64,000 nt of DNA, from NCBI RefSeq assembly GCF_001553625.1, contig NZ_CP014230.1, positions 1,302,001 to 1,366,000 on the forward strand, in the 5' to 3' direction. Every line of letters begins with the position of its first letter. The first letter of the stretch is position 1. Of the stretch, positions 1,401 through 7,995 are shown piece after piece. The notes under the pieces were generated by a model, which was given only the letters and a program-made list of their open reading frames with translations, was not told the DNA's origin and ran no database searches. The stretch is from Desulfomicrobium orale DSM 12838. GTDB lineage: Bacteria; Desulfobacterota; Desulfovibrionia; Desulfovibrionales; Desulfomicrobiaceae. Both the position numbers and the translations under genes were made by a program.

Positions 1401-2177
1401 CTACTTTTTTTCTTCTTCTCCCCTGGTTTCCTGCCACCACAGCCGGGCTTTCTGGCTCAGAAGTTCCAGATCCCCGCCCGCAGCCACGTTGAGGTAGGAC
1501 CGGAACAGCCGCACGGCTTCCAGACTGCGTGGGTTGGCTTCGAACAGAGTGGTGAAGAGTTCCGCGTCCTGATTGATCATTTTGGCCGCCGCATCCACGC
1601 GCCGGGCAAGGGACGGGGTGAAGAAGCGCTCCATATCCCTGACTGACGGCACGGCGCACAGATAGGCCACGGTGGTTACGAAATTGAGCCCCTGCACATA
1701 GCTCATGGCCTGGTCGTGTTCTTCGGCGGTGGTGGTGAAGGTGGAAAATCCGAGGGCGCGGAAGAGGCGGCCGAGATCTTCAAGGGCCTTCCGGTCGCGT
1801 CCCGGCACCAGAGCCACACGCAGATCCGGTCCGGCCGTCTCCGGCCCGAACAGGGGATGAGTGCCCGCCACGGGCGTGTGCGTGGCCGCGAGCATGGTTT
1901 CCAGGGGTGCGATCTTGAGGGAGCAGATGTCGGCCAGAATCGTTTCCGGTGAGAGATGCGGAGCCACGACTGCCACCACTTCCCGCATGGCGGTGACGGG
2001 CACGCACAGAAGAACCAGATCGGCGCCGCTTACGGCCTGGGGCAGGGCATCGGCGTCCAATGGATGATCGAATTCCTCCACTCGGTGTCCGGCGCGGCGG
2101 AAGGTCGTGACGAAGCGGCGGCCCATCTGCCCTCTGGCGCCGATCACCACCATGCGGGAGGGCACGTCAAAGCGCAT
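1401..2177 (-). CDS. tyrA: Prephenate dehydrogenase
   Basis: The enzyme oxidatively decarboxylates prephenate to 4-hydroxyphenylpyruvate for tyrosine synthesis. The N-terminus carries a Rossmann NAD(P) motif (VVIGARGQMGRRF), followed by DLVLLCVPV and the conserved HPLFGPE segment at about residues 107-113. The all-alpha C-terminal domain contains the HDQAMSYVQGLNF stretch. It is 258 residues, short for the family but complete, with no chorismate mutase or ACT domain attached. It is the last gene of the minus-strand aromatic operon, and its start overlaps the end of aroA by about 11 bp, which suggests translational coupling. Confidence 0.92.
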   Translation of the reverse strand: MRFDVPSRMVVIGARGQMGRRFVTTFRRAGHRVEEFDHPLDADALPQAVSGADLVLLCVPVTAMREVVAVVAPHLSPETILADICSLKIAPLETMLAATHTPVAGTHPLFGPETAGPDLRVALVPGRDRKALEDLGRLFRALGFSTFTTTAEEHDQAMSYVQGLNFVTTVAYLCAVPSVRDMERFFTPSLARRVDAAAKMINQDAELFTTLFEANPRSLEAVRLFRSYLNVAAGGDLELLSQKARLWWQETRGEEEKK

Positions 2178-3495
2178 GGGGCACTCCGTTGGCCCGGCGG
2201 ATCAGCGCCCACGCCGTCCAGAAATCCGGGAAAGATTTGGCCACGCAGGCCGGGTTGTCCAGGCTTACCGCCACACCGCCCAGTTCCAGAAGCGAGAGGC
2301 TCATGGCCATGCGATGGTCGCCGTGAGCGGAGAGCTTTGCGCGCGTGCGAAACGGCCCGCCGCGAACGGCCATGCCGTCGGCCCGGGCCGTGATATCCAC
2401 TCCGGCCTTGGACAGCTCCGCCACCGGAGCCTGGATGCGGTCGCATTCCTTGATGGCGAGGTGCGCGGCCCCGGAAATGACGGTTTCCCCCCGGGCGAAG
2501 GCTGCCACGGCTGCCACCGTGGGCACGATGTCCGGGCAGGCGTTCATGTTCACGTCCACGCCGTGCAGGGCCGAAGGAAAGACCGTTACTTCGTCTTTAT
2601 CCCACAGCACGCGCGCGCCCATGCGTTCCAGAATGTCCACCATGAAGCGGTCGCCCTGGGCCGAATCGCGGCGTAGCCCGGTGACCGTGACCGGCACCCT
2701 GCCCACCGTTCCGGCGGCCAGAAAATAGGAGGCGTTGGACCAGTCGCCCTCGATGCGCATGTTTCTGGCCCGGTACGGTCCGGGATTCACCAGAAAGCGG
2801 ATGTCTGCGGGCTCTGCCCCGGCGGCCCCCGAAACATGAGGGCAAGGCCGCCAGCCGCTGCCTGCGCGGAGCTCCACGGCCGCTTCCGCGCCGAAAGCGT
2901 CCATCATGTCCAGGGTCAGGGCCACGTAGGGCCATGAGGCGGTGGACCGTCCGGTCAGGGTGATGACCGTTCTGGACCGGGCCAGAGGTGCGGCCAGAAG
3001 TAGGCCCGACAGGTACTGGCTGCTCTGTTCCGGATTGATGGGCGTTTCCCCGCCGGAAAGGCCCTGCCCGGCGATGGTCAGGGGCGGGTATCCGGTTTTT
3101 TCCTCGAAGATCACATTCACGCCCTGGGAAACGAGAGCGTCGGTCAGATGGGATATGGGCCGCTCGTGCATGCGTTCTTCGCCGTGGATGCGCCATTTGC
3201 CCGGAAAAGCTGCCGCCACGGCGGCCATAAGGCGGCAGGTGGTACCGGATTCACCCACGTTCAGGGATACGGCCGCGCCGGAAGCCGGACCTGGGACCGT
3301 ACCCCGCACCAGCAGGCCGCCGTGGCAGGGTTCCAGTTCCACTCCGAGGGCGCGCAGGCATTCCTTGGTGCGGCTCAGATCCTGGCTGTCCAGCAGTCCT
3401 TCCAGGATGGAGTCGCCGGAAGCCAGAGCCGCGCAGATGAGAGCTCTGTGCGACAGGGATTTGGATGGCGGAGCGGCTATGCGAACGGGGTTCAT
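2167..3495 (-). CDS. aroA: 3-phosphoshikimate 1-carboxyvinyltransferase (EPSP synthase)
   Basis: EPSP synthase joins phosphoenolpyruvate to shikimate 3-phosphate, the sixth step of the shikimate pathway. The 442-residue protein shows the expected signatures: PPSKSLSHRAL near the N-terminus with the catalytic lysine, NVGESGTTCRL near residue 75, IKECDRIQAP, and DHRMAMSLSL near the C-terminus. The start chosen is the ATG at 3495, because the extra upstream residues in frame lie inside the previous gene. That ATG overlaps the stop of the chorismate mutase gene (ATGA), so the two are coupled. Contrast the EPSPS-like domain at about 21.1-22.5 kb, which lacks these residues. Confidence 0.96.
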   Translation of the reverse strand: MNPVRIAAPPSKSLSHRALICAALASGDSILEGLLDSQDLSRTKECLRALGVELEPCHGGLLVRGTVPGPASGAAVSLNVGESGTTCRLMAAVAAAFPGKWRIHGEERMHERPISHLTDALVSQGVNVIFEEKTGYPPLTIAGQGLSGGETPINPEQSSQYLSGLLLAAPLARSRTVITLTGRSTASWPYVALTLDMMDAFGAEAAVELRAGSGWRPCPHVSGAAGAEPADIRFLVNPGPYRARNMRIEGDWSNASYFLAAGTVGRVPVTVTGLRRDSAQGDRFMVDILERMGARVLWDKDEVTVFPSALHGVDVNMNACPDIVPTVAAVAAFARGETVISGAAHLAIKECDRIQAPVAELSKAGVDITARADGMAVRGGPFRTRAKLSAHGDHRMAMSLSLLELGGVAVSLDNPACVAKSFPDFWTAWALIRRANGVPHAL

Positions 3496-3995
3496 GCGTC
3501 CTCCTGCCCATGCGGCAGCAGGCCGGCTGTACACACGTGGTACGGCACAGTCCTGTTGCTCTGCGCAGAATTTTTTTGGGTAATGGCATCTAGGCCGGCT
3601 TTGCGTGAATCCGCAGCCAGAAAGACCCCTCGTGGGGTAGTTTGGGGTGCGGAGTCCGCGGATCGTCCCAGATGCTCCAGATCAAGTTGATGGACGGGCA
3701 GGTCCCCTGGGTTGGGACAGGTTTTTACCAGTCGCCGTTGCAGAGCGCGCGACGAAGAGAAGATCTCCCGATAGATAGAGCGCAGGTGTTCCTCGGGAAT
3801 GGGGCCGCGATTCAGTCGGGTCAGCCGGGTCAGTATCACCTTTTCCCTGGATGGCCTGAACACCGCTGCCGAGGCTGCGGCCTTGATCCGCCCCGCCTCT
3901 AGGCTCAGGGCCGCGCGCTGGTTCAGAAGTTCCACAATACGCTTGTCCAGAGCGTCGATTCGCTTCCGGATTTCAGTCAGCTGGTCGGCAATCAT
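3492..3995 (-). CDS. Chorismate mutase (AroQ type), lacking a prephenate dehydratase domain
   Basis: Residues 1-85 are an AroQ-class chorismate mutase domain. It has the typical pattern of an early arginine (EIRKRID), then ALDKRIVELLNQRAAL, then a lysine at IKAA, and ends with YREIFSSSRALQ. Known relatives in this operon position in Desulfovibrio are bifunctional P-proteins with a C-terminal prephenate dehydratase domain. Here only about 80 residues follow, and they show none of the dehydratase motifs (no GPEGTFS, no TRF, no ESRP). The tail is unlike any domain I recognise. It is coupled to aroA by ATGA and follows DHQ synthase II by only 5 bp. The ATG at 3995 was chosen because the open frame upstream lies within the previous gene. 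Confidence 0.85.
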   Translation of the reverse strand: MIADQLTEIRKRIDALDKRIVELLNQRAALSLEAGRIKAAASAAVFRPSREKVILTRLTRLNRGPIPEEHLRSIYREIFSSSRALQRRLVKTCPNPGDLPVHQLDLEHLGRSADSAPQTTPRGVFLAADSRKAGLDAITQKNSAQSNRTVPYHVCTAGLLPHGQEDA

Positions 3996-4000
3996 AGGTG

Positions 4001-4969
4001 TTACTCCCTGATGTCTTCGTCGATGCGCATGCCGAAATGCCGTCCCGCCTGGTCCGTGCGGCAGAGCACCGTATCGCCCGTGGCCAGATCGACCACGCTG
4101 ACCGGCGCGCCGTCGGCCCGGACCAGTCGGATGGTCTCGGCGTTCTGCAGGAAAACGGCGCCGGTTCTGTCGCCGCATCGGGCCTCGATGAGCAGCATGG
4201 GCCGGACCTCGGTTTTGCAGCGGCCCACGGTGGCCAGGGTGGTGGAGCCGTCGGCGGCCGCGAGCAGGACTTCCGTCCCGGCGCGCAGCTCTTCCAGATA
4301 GGAGGTTCTGTCGCCGGGCATGACGGCATAGGCGTGCACGGCCCCGGCGTTGATCCTGAACGGCCGGGGAGCCACATAAGGATTGGATTCCGTTTCCGCG
4401 TTGACCAGAAAGGTGAAGGCGCTGGAGTTGCCCACCAGCATTCCCTGGCCGGACCGCATCAGGGTCATGGTGTCCACGCAGACGCGGTGGCCGAGACCGG
4501 CCGGGGTAATGGCCGTGATCGTGGCCGTTTCCAGCGGCAGAACACCCTGGCTGAGCTTCAGCTCGCGGACAATGCTCTTCAGGTCGCCCGCGCCTTGGGG
4601 TGTGACGACGACGGTGGCCACACCCCGCTCCAGAATGCCGGCGGCAAGCCTGGCCCTGTCCAGCCCCGCCGCCTCCACGGCCAGCCCGCCGGACTGGGCC
4701 AGAATGTTCTCCACGGGAATGATCTCCCAGCCCTCGCGCAGGATCACGGTCCGGCCCTGAGCGAGCAGCCGTACGGTCTCTTCTTCATCGGACTTGTCCT
4801 TGAGGGCGACGAATTCCAGTTCCCCGGCGTCCAGAACGGGAATCTTGCTCAGAGCCCGCACTGCCTCCAGATGTTCGGCCTCGGCGATGACGGCGTCCAC
4901 CCCGGATTCCAGAGCCAGGGTGACTTCGCCCTTGTCGAAGGGCACGGCTTCAAAAAAGATTTTTTTCAT
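4001..4969 (-). CDS. 3-dehydroquinate synthase II (archaeal-type)
   Basis: This family makes 3-dehydroquinate from 2-amino-3,7-dideoxy-D-threo-hept-6-ulosonate (ADTH) by NAD-dependent oxidative deamination, replacing AroB. It was characterised in methanogens and is also found in Desulfovibrio. The 322-residue protein begins MKKIFFEAVPFDKGEVTLAL and contains EWEIIPVEN-like (REGWEIIPVENI) and KTEVRPMLLIEA segments typical of DHQ synthase II. The ATG at 4969 matches the usual family start; the further upstream frame is a shadow of the preceding gene. It follows ADTH synthase by 34 bp, so the two consecutive pathway steps sit side by side. Confidence 0.92.
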   Translation of the reverse strand: MKKIFFEAVPFDKGEVTLALESGVDAVIAEAEHLEAVRALSKIPVLDAGELEFVALKDKSDEEETVRLLAQGRTVILREGWEIIPVENILAQSGGLAVEAAGLDRARLAAGILERGVATVVVTPQGAGDLKSIVRELKLSQGVLPLETATITAITPAGLGHRVCVDTMTLMRSGQGMLVGNSSAFTFLVNAETESNPYVAPRPFRINAGAVHAYAVMPGDRTSYLEELRAGTEVLLAAADGSTTLATVGRCKTEVRPMLLIEARCGDRTGAVFLQNAETIRLVRADGAPVSVVDLATGDTVLCRTDQAGRHFGMRIDEDIRE

Positions 4970-5003: not shown

Positions 5004-5810
5004 CTAGACGGCGTTTTCCTCGAACAGGGCCAGAGCCTGATCCACGGAGTAGTCCAGATGCACCACGCTGTGCAGAGCCCGCACCAGCCGGGCCGGGTCC
5101 TCGGCCTGGAAGATATTGCGCCCCATGGACAGCCCCGCGCCGCCGGCGGTGATGGAGTCGTGGGCCATTTGCAGGATTTCTCTGGGCGAGTCCATGCGCG
5201 GCCCGCCGGCAATGACCACGGGAACGCAGCAGCTTTCGGTCACTCTGGAGAAGGATTCGGGATCGCCGGTGTAGGCCACTTTGATCACGTCGGCGCCCAG
5301 CTCCACGCCCAGACGGGCGCAGTGAGCCACGGTGAACGCGTCCCATTCAGACTTCACCTTGGGGCCGCGGGCATAGACCATGGCCAGGAGCGGAATGCCC
5401 CATTCAGCGCAGGATGCGGACACCCGTCCCATGTCCCGGAGCATGTCCCGCTCCGATTCGTCACCCAGGTTCAGATGCACGGACACGGCATCGGCTCCGA
5501 GCTTGATGCCTTCCTCCACCGTACCCACCAGAACCTTGGCGTTGGGGAAAGGAGACAGGCTGGTGCTGGCGGAAAGATGGATGATGAGTCCGATGTCCCG
5601 GCCGTGCCTGCGGTGTCCGCACCGGGCCAGTCCCTTGTGCATGAGCACGGCGTTGGCTCCGCCTTCGGCCACCTTGTCTACGGTGACCCGTGTGTCCACC
5701 AGCCCGTCGATGGGGCCCACCGTGGTGCCGTGATCCAGGGGCACGATGATGGTTCTCTCCGTGTTACGGTTGAAAATTCGCTCCAGCCGGATACTCTTTC
5801 CCATGTGCAT
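5004..5810 (-). CDS. 2-amino-3,7-dideoxy-D-threo-hept-6-ulosonate synthase (class I aldolase family)
   Basis: This 268-residue protein belongs to the DeoC/LacD-like class I aldolase family that includes fructose-bisphosphate aldolase and ADTH synthase. It shows [17 protein letters not shown] near residue 20, a Schiff-base lysine candidate in [11 protein letters not shown], and a phosphate-binding [10 protein letters not shown] segment. Next to DHQ synthase II the ADTH synthase role is strongly preferred over glycolytic aldolase: it would join aspartate semialdehyde to a 6-deoxy-5-ketofructose phosphate. The ATG at 5810 has a strong AGGAG 8-9 bases upstream. It is the first enzyme gene of the operon and lies just downstream of a candidate transcription attenuator (see leader entries). 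Confidence 0.9.
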
Positions 5811-5847
5811 GATCGTCTCTCCTTAAATAATGAATTTCCGGCGGCGA

Positions 5848-5880
5848 AGAAAAAGGGCCGCCGGCGGTTGCCTGCGGCCC
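5848..5880 (-). terminator. Attenuator terminator of the aromatic operon
   Basis: On the minus strand GGGCCGC pairs with GCGGCCC. After one A/G mismatch the stem continues with GGC/GCC around an AACC loop, and TTTTTCTT follows. This is a strong intrinsic terminator placed between the leader peptide and the ADTH synthase start. Its 5' arm and loop (GGCAACCGCC, 5863-5872) can instead pair with GGCGTTGCC (5914-5922) in the last leader codons, with one bulged base. That is the alternative pairing expected of an antiterminator. Confidence 0.8.
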
Positions 5881-5909
5881 TCTAATGCTTTGCTCGTGTC
5901 GGAAAAAGA

Positions 5910-5999
5910 TTACGGCAACGCCTCCGGACCACAGGAATTGCGACAGTAATAATCGTAAACAAATACGTATGAATTTTGTGTGAACATGGAGCTTCTCAT
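5910..5999 (-). CDS. Phe/Tyr-rich leader peptide of the aromatic operon
   Basis: A 29-codon frame starts at the ATG at 5999 and stops with TAA at 5910-5912. Phe is at codons 6 and 13 and Tyr at codons 11, 15, 17 and 18, so six of thirteen consecutive codons (6-18) are aromatic. No Trp codon is present. The frame ends 30 bases before the terminator hairpin. A ribosome stalled on the Tyr/Phe codons would leave GGCGTTGCC (codons 26-29) free to form the antiterminator, whereas a ribosome reaching the stop would cover it and allow termination. No good ribosome-binding site is visible; an internal ATG at codon 5 is an alternative start. Confidence 0.72.
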   Translation of the reverse strand: MRSSMFTQNSYVFVYDYYCRNSCGPEALP

Positions 6000-6013
6000 A
6001 ATGGAGTTGTACC

Positions 6014-6039
6014 TATGCGCCGCTGTCGGAGGCTGTCAA
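6014..6039 (-). promoter_or_regulatory. Candidate promoter of the aromatic operon leader
   Basis: On the minus strand a perfect TTGACA (6034-6039) is followed after about 16-18 bases by a weak CATAGG/TAGGTA -10 region. Transcription would begin a few bases before the leader ATG at 5999, giving a very short untranslated leader. The -35 is convincing and the -10 is not. Confidence 0.45.
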
Positions 6040-6193
6040 GAAATAATCCGGTATGTTAAAAGATTTCATCCCGCCGGTCCGTTGGTCCGGGTCGGCCTCC
6101 GGAGCTTGCCGCCTGGACAGGCAGAGCATAGTGCGGAGCGAAAGGGAAACTCTGGGCCGTGGAGATCGCGGCCAGAAGACCATGGAGACGCCC

Positions 6194-6610
6194 ATGACCA
6201 CCGGAAAGGAACTGTCCAAGGTCGTCCGGAAACTCTGCCTGTGCTGCCAGGGGCAAAGCTGGAAGCTGGTCCGGGAGTGCGCCCAGAAGGGATGCTCCCT
6301 GCATGTCTTCCGGGACGGCGCAGCCGATGACGATGTCCTGCGTCCGGCCCTGGACGCCTTTTGTCTGGCCTGCGCGGGGAGTCCGGAAGAGGTGCTTCAC
6401 TGTCCGGCGGGACAGGCCATGGGCTCCCAGCCGCCCTGTCCGGCTCATCCTTTCCGGCCCGGCGCGCCGAGGCAGCGGCTCCGGACGCTGCCCGGTCTGG
6501 TGACGCGGGAAGCTTCGCCCGCCCCGGACGCGCGCCCGGCCGGAGAAGCTGAGGCCGCGACGGCGCTCTTCCCGCTGGAATTTTTGGCTCCCGAAGCGCC
6601 GGATATCTGA
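6194..6610 (+). CDS. Small cysteine-rich protein of unknown function
   Basis: 138 residues. The N-terminal third holds paired cysteines in the order LCLCCQG, RECAQKGCSLHVFRDG and FCLACAG, suggestive of a zinc- or metal-binding knuckle; a CPAHPFRPG segment follows. Short proteins with a C-x2-C, CPxxxCPLYPFR-like pattern are common in Desulfovibrio, but I know of no assigned function. The ATG at 6194 is preferred because GGAG stands 6 bases upstream; an ATG at 6182 is also possible. It is divergent from the aromatic operon leader, with about 150 bp between. The C-terminal third is Pro/Ala-rich and probably unstructured. Confidence 0.6.
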   Translation: MTTGKELSKVVRKLCLCCQGQSWKLVRECAQKGCSLHVFRDGAADDDVLRPALDAFCLACAGSPEEVLHCPAGQAMGSQPPCPAHPFRPGAPRQRLRTLPGLVTREASPAPDARPAGEAEAATALFPLEFLAPEAPDI

Positions 6611-6654: not shown

Positions 6655-7995
6655 ATGAGCAGATTCGACAGAAAAACCAGAGCCAGGCTGGACGCCTGGA
6701 CAAAGGCCGGGCTGATCTCCTCCGGGCAGGCCGCAGCCATTGACGCCTATGAAGAGGCCCGCAGCGGACCGTCCTGGGGAATCCTGGTCTTTGCGGGCTT
6801 CGGCGCGCTGGCGCTGGGCCTGGGCGTTATTTTGCTGTTCGCCTACAATTGGGAAAAGATGCATAAATTCGCCAAGCTGGGCGTCATTTTCGGAGGGCTC
6901 GCCCTGGCTCACGGCGCGGGCTTGTGGCTGCGCCGGGAAAATCGTCCCCTCTTGGCCGAGACGGCCCACCTTGTGGGAACCATGCTCTTCGGCGCAGGCA
7001 TTTTTCTGGTGGCGCAGATATACCATGTCTCCGCTCATTACCCTGACGCCTTCCTGATCTGGGCTCTCGGGGCGCTCCTTCTGACCTGGGTTCTGCCCTC
7101 GGTTCAGCAGGGCTGGCTGGCCTCGGGGCTGCTCTGCGTCTGGGCCTTTTCGGAATACATCTCCTACGATGCCAGAATGGCCGCCGCTCCGCTTCTGGTG
7201 TTCGCGGGCACGGGCCTTCCGGCCTGGAAGCTGCGCTCTCCGGCTCTGCTCACGGCTTCGGCCCTGTGCACCACCCTCACCGCCATGGCGGGCATTGTCG
7301 TGAGCGATGAAACCATTTTCATGATTCTGCTGTCCATGGCCGTGCTCTTCGCTGCTCTGGGCTGGCTGCTCCGGCGGCGCGGGGACTTCCCGCAGGCTTC
7401 GGCTGTTTTCAGAAACGTGAGCCTTGCGTTGTACCTCCCCTTGATGTTCGTCTTGAGCTTTTACGACATGGGCAGATTTCTCCTGCCTGAAGCCGGGTTC
7501 TGGCAGGATGAGCCGTTCGTTCTCTGGGGCCGGCTGGCCGCGCTCCTGCTGGCAAGCGCCGTACTGGGCGGCTGGGCCGTGTGGCAGGCCGTGCGCCGGG
7601 ACGAAGCGGGAACCGCCGCCTGCCGCGTGCATCTGCTGCTGCCCATCGCGGTGTATGCGGTCTATCTGTTGCTGGCTCTGGTTTTTTCCGCAGACCTGCC
7701 TGGTTTGGAACAGTCATACACGGTTTGGGTGATTCTGGCCGCGCTGGGCAGTCTGGCCTTTCTCCATCATGCCGTGTTGGGACTATGGGTCGGCTCGCGC
7801 GAAACCCGGCCCTGGCTGGTGGCGGGAAGCGCCCTGCTGCTGACCGCATGGGTCTTCGTACGGTTTGGCGATCTGTTTGAGAACCTGCTGGCGAGGGGCG
7901 CGGCTTTTCTGGTCCTGTCCGGGGCTCTTTTCTTCATTGCGGCCATGTATCACCGCCAGCGGCGGGAAGCGGCCGCCGGGAGGAACGCGTCATGA
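6655..7995 (+). CDS. DUF2157 family integral membrane protein
   Basis: 446 residues. A short cytoplasmic N-terminus contains the DUF2157 pattern (DAWTKAGLISSGQAAAIDAYE), followed by roughly a dozen hydrophobic segments from residue 43 to the end. Function is not established for the family. Its stop overlaps the start of the next gene by four bases (ATGA). The pairing of DUF2157 with a GDYXXLXY protein recurs in many bacteria and suggests that the two products work together in the envelope. The ATG at 6655 has an AGAGGA 7-12 bases upstream. Confidence 0.85.
   Translation: MSRFDRKTRARLDAWTKAGLISSGQAAAIDAYEEARSGPSWGILVFAGFGALALGLGVILLFAYNWEKMHKFAKLGVIFGGLALAHGAGLWLRRENRPLLAETAHLVGTMLFGAGIFLVAQIYHVSAHYPDAFLIWALGALLLTWVLPSVQQGWLASGLLCVWAFSEYISYDARMAAAPLLVFAGTGLPAWKLRSPALLTASALCTTLTAMAGIVVSDETIFMILLSMAVLFAALGWLLRRRGDFPQASAVFRNVSLALYLPLMFVLSFYDMGRFLLPEAGFWQDEPFVLWGRLAALLLASAVLGGWAVWQAVRRDEAGTAACRVHLLLPIAVYAVYLLLALVFSADLPGLEQSYTVWVILAALGSLAFLHHAVLGLWVGSRETRPWLVAGSALLLTAWVFVRFGDLFENLLARGAAFLVLSGALFFIAAMYHRQRREAAAGRNAS

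Follow-up and report, generated by a model that had tools for sequence, protein, structure and literature searches.

Leader-peptide attenuation is textbook knowledge. In the Escherichia coli pheA, pheST and trp attenuators, a short leader ORF carries runs of codons for the end product, and protector, antiterminator and terminator helices exclude one another. The first-step isozymes AroF, AroG and AroH of the same bacterium answer to separate aromatic amino acids through the TyrR and TrpR repressors and allostery on the DAHP synthases. In Sinorhizobium meliloti, the attenuator uORF trpL lies on an mRNA that starts at the ATG (leaderless), with a start point determined experimentally (PMC7298713). 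An attenuator was predicted computationally before the Desulfovibrio vulgaris aroA'-aroB'-pheA-aroF-tyrA-[trp] operon (Song et al. 2005; PMC1173090, Table 7, Merino database), in a paper from which the word "leader" is absent and which names neither a leader peptide nor an amino acid that is sensed and has no data on conservation or isozymes. In D. hydrothermalis, the cluster from ADTH synthase to trp changes expression as a block (PMC4162548), which is consistent with one control point.

The locus described here lies in a 64-kb window (the whole stretch of DNA that was analysed) from a bacterium of sulfate-reducer type and represents the same operon type as that of D. vulgaris, with a putative attenuator likewise ahead of it. 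All five genes are on the minus strand and encode ADTH synthase (2-amino-3,7-dideoxy-D-threo-hept-6-ulosonate synthase; 5004..5810; TIGR01949 at 386.5 bits against a cut-off of 299.45, NF005556 above cut-off), 3-dehydroquinate synthase II (DHQ synthase II; 4001..4969; NF002628 and PF01959 above cut-off), a chorismate mutase domain that is a PheA remnant without the prephenate dehydratase part (3492..3995; TIGR01807 and PF01817 only), EPSP synthase (aroA; 2167..3495; TIGR01356), and prephenate dehydrogenase (tyrA; 1401..2177; PF02153 above cut-off, best NCBIfam match below cut-off). Judging from the window and its relatives, we put the probability that the element ahead of this operon is a ribosome-mediated transcription attenuator at roughly 0.9. 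The earlier note had proposed a ribosome-stalling attenuator with aromatic codons and ADTH synthase as its target, and the relatives strongly back that proposal.

The leader ORF (5999-5910, minus strand) has 29 codons and encodes MRSSMFTQNSYVFVYDYYCRNSCGPEALP followed by a stop. Phe stands at codons 6 and 13 and Tyr at codons 11, 15, 17 and 18, exactly as the earlier note had read them, and the leader is enriched in codons for end products of the pathway both in the window and family-wide. Between the leader and the first structural gene sits a GC-rich intrinsic terminator hairpin with a T run (5849..5883, minus strand), which nearly all leader-bearing relatives also have. It is as strong as had been claimed: the stem starts 26 nt past the leader stop, has a dG of -24.7 kcal/mol and is followed by TTTTT. 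The stem has an internal mismatch.

The -35 element TTGACA (6034..6039, minus strand) lies 40 nt before the leader ATG, and the likely -10 element TAGGTA (6010..6015, minus strand) follows an 18-nt spacer at a position kept as TAnnnn in relatives. In 106 of 152 distinct leaders, TTGAC precedes the ATG by 35-40 nt and a TA occupies the -10 position. Together these place the expected start point 0-4 nt before the ATG and would make the frame leaderless; in the window the transcript is predicted to start near 6003-6000, and the comparison suggests that most leader frames are on leaderless mRNA. In Desulfovibrio-like genera, TTGAC lies 48-58 nt from the ATG instead, often with a purine-rich stretch that resembles a Shine-Dalgarno (SD) sequence as judged by eye. 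A leader start at Met5 was considered and rejected, as the conserved distance from TTGACA fits Met1. The predicted -10 element of the window is poor, and a promoter and terminator consensus scan listed neither the leader promoter nor the terminator, probably because of that weak -10 element and the mismatch in the terminator stem.

The conserved antiterminator joins the segment right after the aromatic codons to the 5' arm of the terminator. In the window, the predicted pairing is that of CCTGTGGTCC (leader codons 22-25; 5935-5926, minus strand) with GGGCCGCAGG (5880-5871, minus strand), a common strand that serves as both terminator 5' arm and antiterminator 3' strand; the resulting 10-bp helix would exclude the terminator by using its 5' arm. 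From the last aromatic codon to the start of the antiterminator the median distance is 6 nt (IQR 6-9). Over 149 distinct leaders, the antiterminator strand pairs better with its own partner than with swapped ones (-20.6 vs -18.8 kcal/mol, z -12.1, 0 of 2000 permutations), in a test partly confounded by composition and common ancestry, related sequences not being independent. Composition-matched shuffles still give a z of about -3.5, so part of the pairing signal is composition. Changes on both sides of the helix are found, for example GCTGGC/GCCAGC, GGTCGCAGGC/GCCTGTGACT and CGCGAAC/GTTCGCG. Candidate antiterminators are weak in some outgroup leaders with a terminator gap of 46-61 nt.

The earlier note had assigned the antiterminator to leader codons 26-29. 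The two segments, GGCGTTGCC (5922-5914) and GGCAACCGCC (5872-5863), do exist and can pair (-13.1 kcal/mol), but this pairing was rejected as the antiterminator: among 188 upstream regions only 5 contain it, every one from the window genome or its sister, and it would open the terminator at its top alone and leave the lower GC stem intact. The minimum-energy fold of 5840-6040 was likewise set aside; its long helix takes in bases of the promoter spacer and is thus probably absent from the RNA.

The covarying strand also bears on a reading in which the leader peptide itself is the agent, either in trans or, in the manner of TnaC, as a nascent chain that binds free amino acid and arrests the ribosome. 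Attenuator peptides can act in trans (S. meliloti peTrpL, PMC7298713), and a CGLEG-like end is kept in many leaders; the conserved C-terminal residues are, however, explained by the antiterminator DNA, and they change with the pairing partner (KIAADG, QPVVME, ASTFKSP). The aromatic residues vary in number and order, as codons would, and the window and sister leaders have only about 60% of their residues in common. We consider a role of the peptide itself very unlikely.

ADTH synthase was found in all 22 family genomes searched (G006 with a distant 42% paralog only) and in 238 of 247 order genomes at the cut-offs used, several of the compared genomes being fragmentary. Leader and terminator lie ahead of it in nearly all members of the order examined; MTNSSLNHSLYFFWYFYFSRACGLRGLL is an example from the same genus. 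The proposal that an aromatic-rich leader and a hairpin would appear at the same place in relatives was borne out across genera and families. Elsewhere in the phylum, an aromatic-rich leader together with a terminator whose hairpin differs in sequence was seen at 20 of 22 readable loci (for example, leader RGFYFSYYYFWGYRCASTFKSP with AAAAGCCGTGGCGCA). Codons kept in kind while the DNA differs argue for sensing at the codon level.

Given this conservation, it is most improbable that an ordinary terminator, whether end-of-gene or constitutive and promoter-proximal, stands behind a chance ORF. Aromatic-containing short ORFs do arise by chance, and in the 64-kb window, counting both strands, six of 568 ORFs that are 12-45 codons long have at least five aromatic residues in 10, but across genera and families the leader keeps its place, its aromatic content, its spacing and its pairing partner. 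The leader is the only one of those six with a terminator after it. An end-of-gene terminator is further opposed by the upstream sequence, where no minus-strand gene was found and ORFs 6053-6610 and 6655-7995 are oppositely oriented (the choice of genes being ours).

The ribosome was assumed, on general grounds, to cover -14 to +16 nt around the P site, and the bases it covers were forced unpaired in thermodynamic folds that ignore kinetics. In the window, the antiterminator retains 10 bp as long as the A site is no further along than Y18; 7 bp are left at codon 19 and about 0 at codons 25 to 29. The last aromatic codon of the sensing stretch from Y11 to Y18 (Y-V-F-V-Y-D-Y-Y; 5946..5969, minus strand) is thus where masking starts to abolish the antiterminator. 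In 13 of 13 leaders tried, the switch came no more than a few codons from where the aromatic cluster ends. By masking and spacing in silico, the sensing codons are so placed that the antiterminator would stay free behind a stalled ribosome and be masked by one that has finished. With the ribosome on the stop codon, these folds show the antiterminator partly re-forming in some leaders, and termination there would need the protector or kinetics.

In most relatives, leader segments on either side of the aromatic codons can pair as a protector, with those codons in the loop. This pairing also covaries (own partner -25.2 vs swapped -20.8 kcal/mol, z -15.2; controls z -0.9 and -2.8). The protector is weak in the window (-12.3 kcal/mol) and strong in the sister genome (-27.6), so the window attenuator may be leaky when its leader is untranslated. 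By raw count, 91 of 152 leaders have a GGAG, GAGG or AGGA stretch in the last 24 nt ahead of their stop codon, often at a distance of 8-10 nt from it; the window copy is at 5925-5921. Such a stretch could slow a terminating ribosome over the antiterminator and is also part of the protector strand.

A stalled ribosome on the Tyr/Phe-rich leader very likely decides whether transcription continues; we infer the stalling itself, where transcription starts and how the operon responds from the sequence features above. RNA polymerase would start nearly at the leader ATG, and a ribosome would begin the leader peptide. With charged tRNA-Tyr (or tRNA-Phe) scarce, the ribosome would stall at codons up to Y18 and leave CCTGTGGTCC free to pair with the emerging GGGCCGCAGG, so that the terminator would be blocked and the ADTH synthase operon transcribed. 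With charged tRNA plentiful, the ribosome would reach the stop and cover CCTGTGGTCC, the terminator would form, and transcription would end. The third pairing, around the aromatic codons, would be the classical protector helix in relatives.

Comparison of the loci establishes that the choice of amino acid follows gene context. The window leader is Tyr-heavy and has no Trp codons. At 76 loci ADTH synthase heads an aro or aro-trp operon, and 69 of the leaders are mixed with Trp, three are Phe/Tyr only and four were not called, the classes being assigned by script and about a dozen by hand; L140, one of the four, does carry a leader. The sensing of two amino acids at once, as claimed for the Phe/Tyr leader of the window, would be a local derivative, as the leaders of most relatives contain codons for all three of Phe, Tyr and Trp. 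Among ADTH synthase paralogs that stand alone, some have a leader with Phe only (e.g. MTHNSARFFFFFSFNDRNACGLGVR), some have one with Tyr only (e.g. FGPYYYYGLRARG) and some have no leader, and two-gene ADTHS-pheA units of Desulfobacterales have Phe-rich leaders. On a quick FastTree tree, the Tyr-type paralogs form one clade, and three or more changes on well-supported branches are needed for the Phe type. A trpE that lies in a separate operon is usually preceded by a Trp-run leader, e.g. MNVFSNTISNSFKGWWWRIQLRGGDVRA.

Several further arrangements were observed. A third clade of standalone ADTH synthase paralogs (L171, L174, L177, L180, L182, L147, L168) has no recognisable leader or attenuator. 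ADTH synthase genes are in tandem at L121, L148, L158 and L220-L222, and at L220-L222 a candidate leader precedes each copy, with Trp codons in the upstream one. In separate trpE operons of relatives (L230, L231, L233, L234, L239, L220 and others), two to three consecutive Trp codons are usual. The window genome has a second ADTH-synthase-like paralog, 42% identical (C1:870649-871380, L002), and nearly all family genomes contain this paralog; no attenuator was seen upstream of it in the loci read.

That general translation state, through uncoupling of the leader ribosome, sets readthrough with no amino-acid specificity is scarcely credible, for although the antiterminator is predicted at equilibrium in most leaders without a ribosome, the masking switch coincides with the end of the aromatic codons and codon identity tracks gene context (Phe-only, Tyr-only and Trp-only leaders).

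The gene content of the window genome can be set beside its leader. PF00800 (prephenate dehydratase) is absent from the whole single-contig genome and present in the sister and in 14 of 14 control genomes; the window organism is likely a Phe auxotroph. Neither TrpE nor TrpD was found in the window genome or its sister (G014), the window genome having only a chorismate-binding homologue of 30% identity (C1:1296019-1296768), and both are likely Trp auxotrophs. DAHP synthase was looked for by PF00793, and the single match in the window genome reads as KdsA, as judged from sequence. A plasmid search with the window gave no match.

None of the 6 Trp-minus genomes has a Trp codon in the cluster, against 44 of the 54 that are Trp-plus (Fisher p 1.6e-4), and this association of Trp-codon loss with Trp auxotrophy is suggestive only, because it comprises just 3-4 independent pairs. 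Four genomes (G007, G018, G019 and G246) were excluded from the comparison as their operon contig is cut; the first three have a Trp codon and no trpE match, and counting them would weaken the association. Of the 10 Trp-plus genomes without a Trp codon, several carry a leader with a Trp run ahead of a trpE located elsewhere, so absence of the codon does not imply auxotrophy.

Taken together, we think it fairly probable that leaders before ADTH synthase act phylum-wide as recodable amino-acid addresses, mostly on leaderless mRNA. Copies in aro(-trp) operons would read Phe, Tyr and Trp, and standalone paralogs would have switched independently to Phe alone (three or more times) or to Tyr alone, so that end-product control would be specific to each isozyme and need no repressor protein; codons would be dropped when a biosynthesis is lost, as in the Trp-less window genome. 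The leader codons would then show how archaeal-type entry into aromatic biosynthesis may be controlled in bacteria, by naming the end products, and the purpose of each ADTH-synthase isozyme could be simply predicted from them. Repeated rewriting of codons after gene duplication provides a natural test set for codon-by-codon evolution of regulatory specificity, and the 2005 attenuator prediction becomes directly testable.

The element matched no Rfam family at gathering score, T-box, Phe and Trp leaders included. The earlier note knew of no description for this pathway variant; the attenuator itself was in fact predicted in 2005 (PMC1173090), but no description of the leader, the three-amino-acid code or the isozyme-specific codes was found in openly searchable papers. 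The mechanism is of a known kind, and the isozyme-specific codes appear undescribed in the searchable papers.

Like E. coli pheA, pheST and trp, the window locus has a leader ORF with end-product codons and mutually exclusive antiterminator and terminator helices; unlike them, its target is ADTH synthase with DHQ synthase II, and most members of the group mix Phe, Tyr and Trp codons. It resembles S. meliloti trpL as a probably leaderless attenuator uORF, with a start point predicted here and experimental there, whereas trpL is alphaproteobacterial, reads Trp only and lies upstream of trpE(G). As with AroF, AroG and AroH of E. coli, first-step isozymes would be placed under separate aromatic amino acids, but here the code lies in the leader peptides of the ADTH synthase paralogs.
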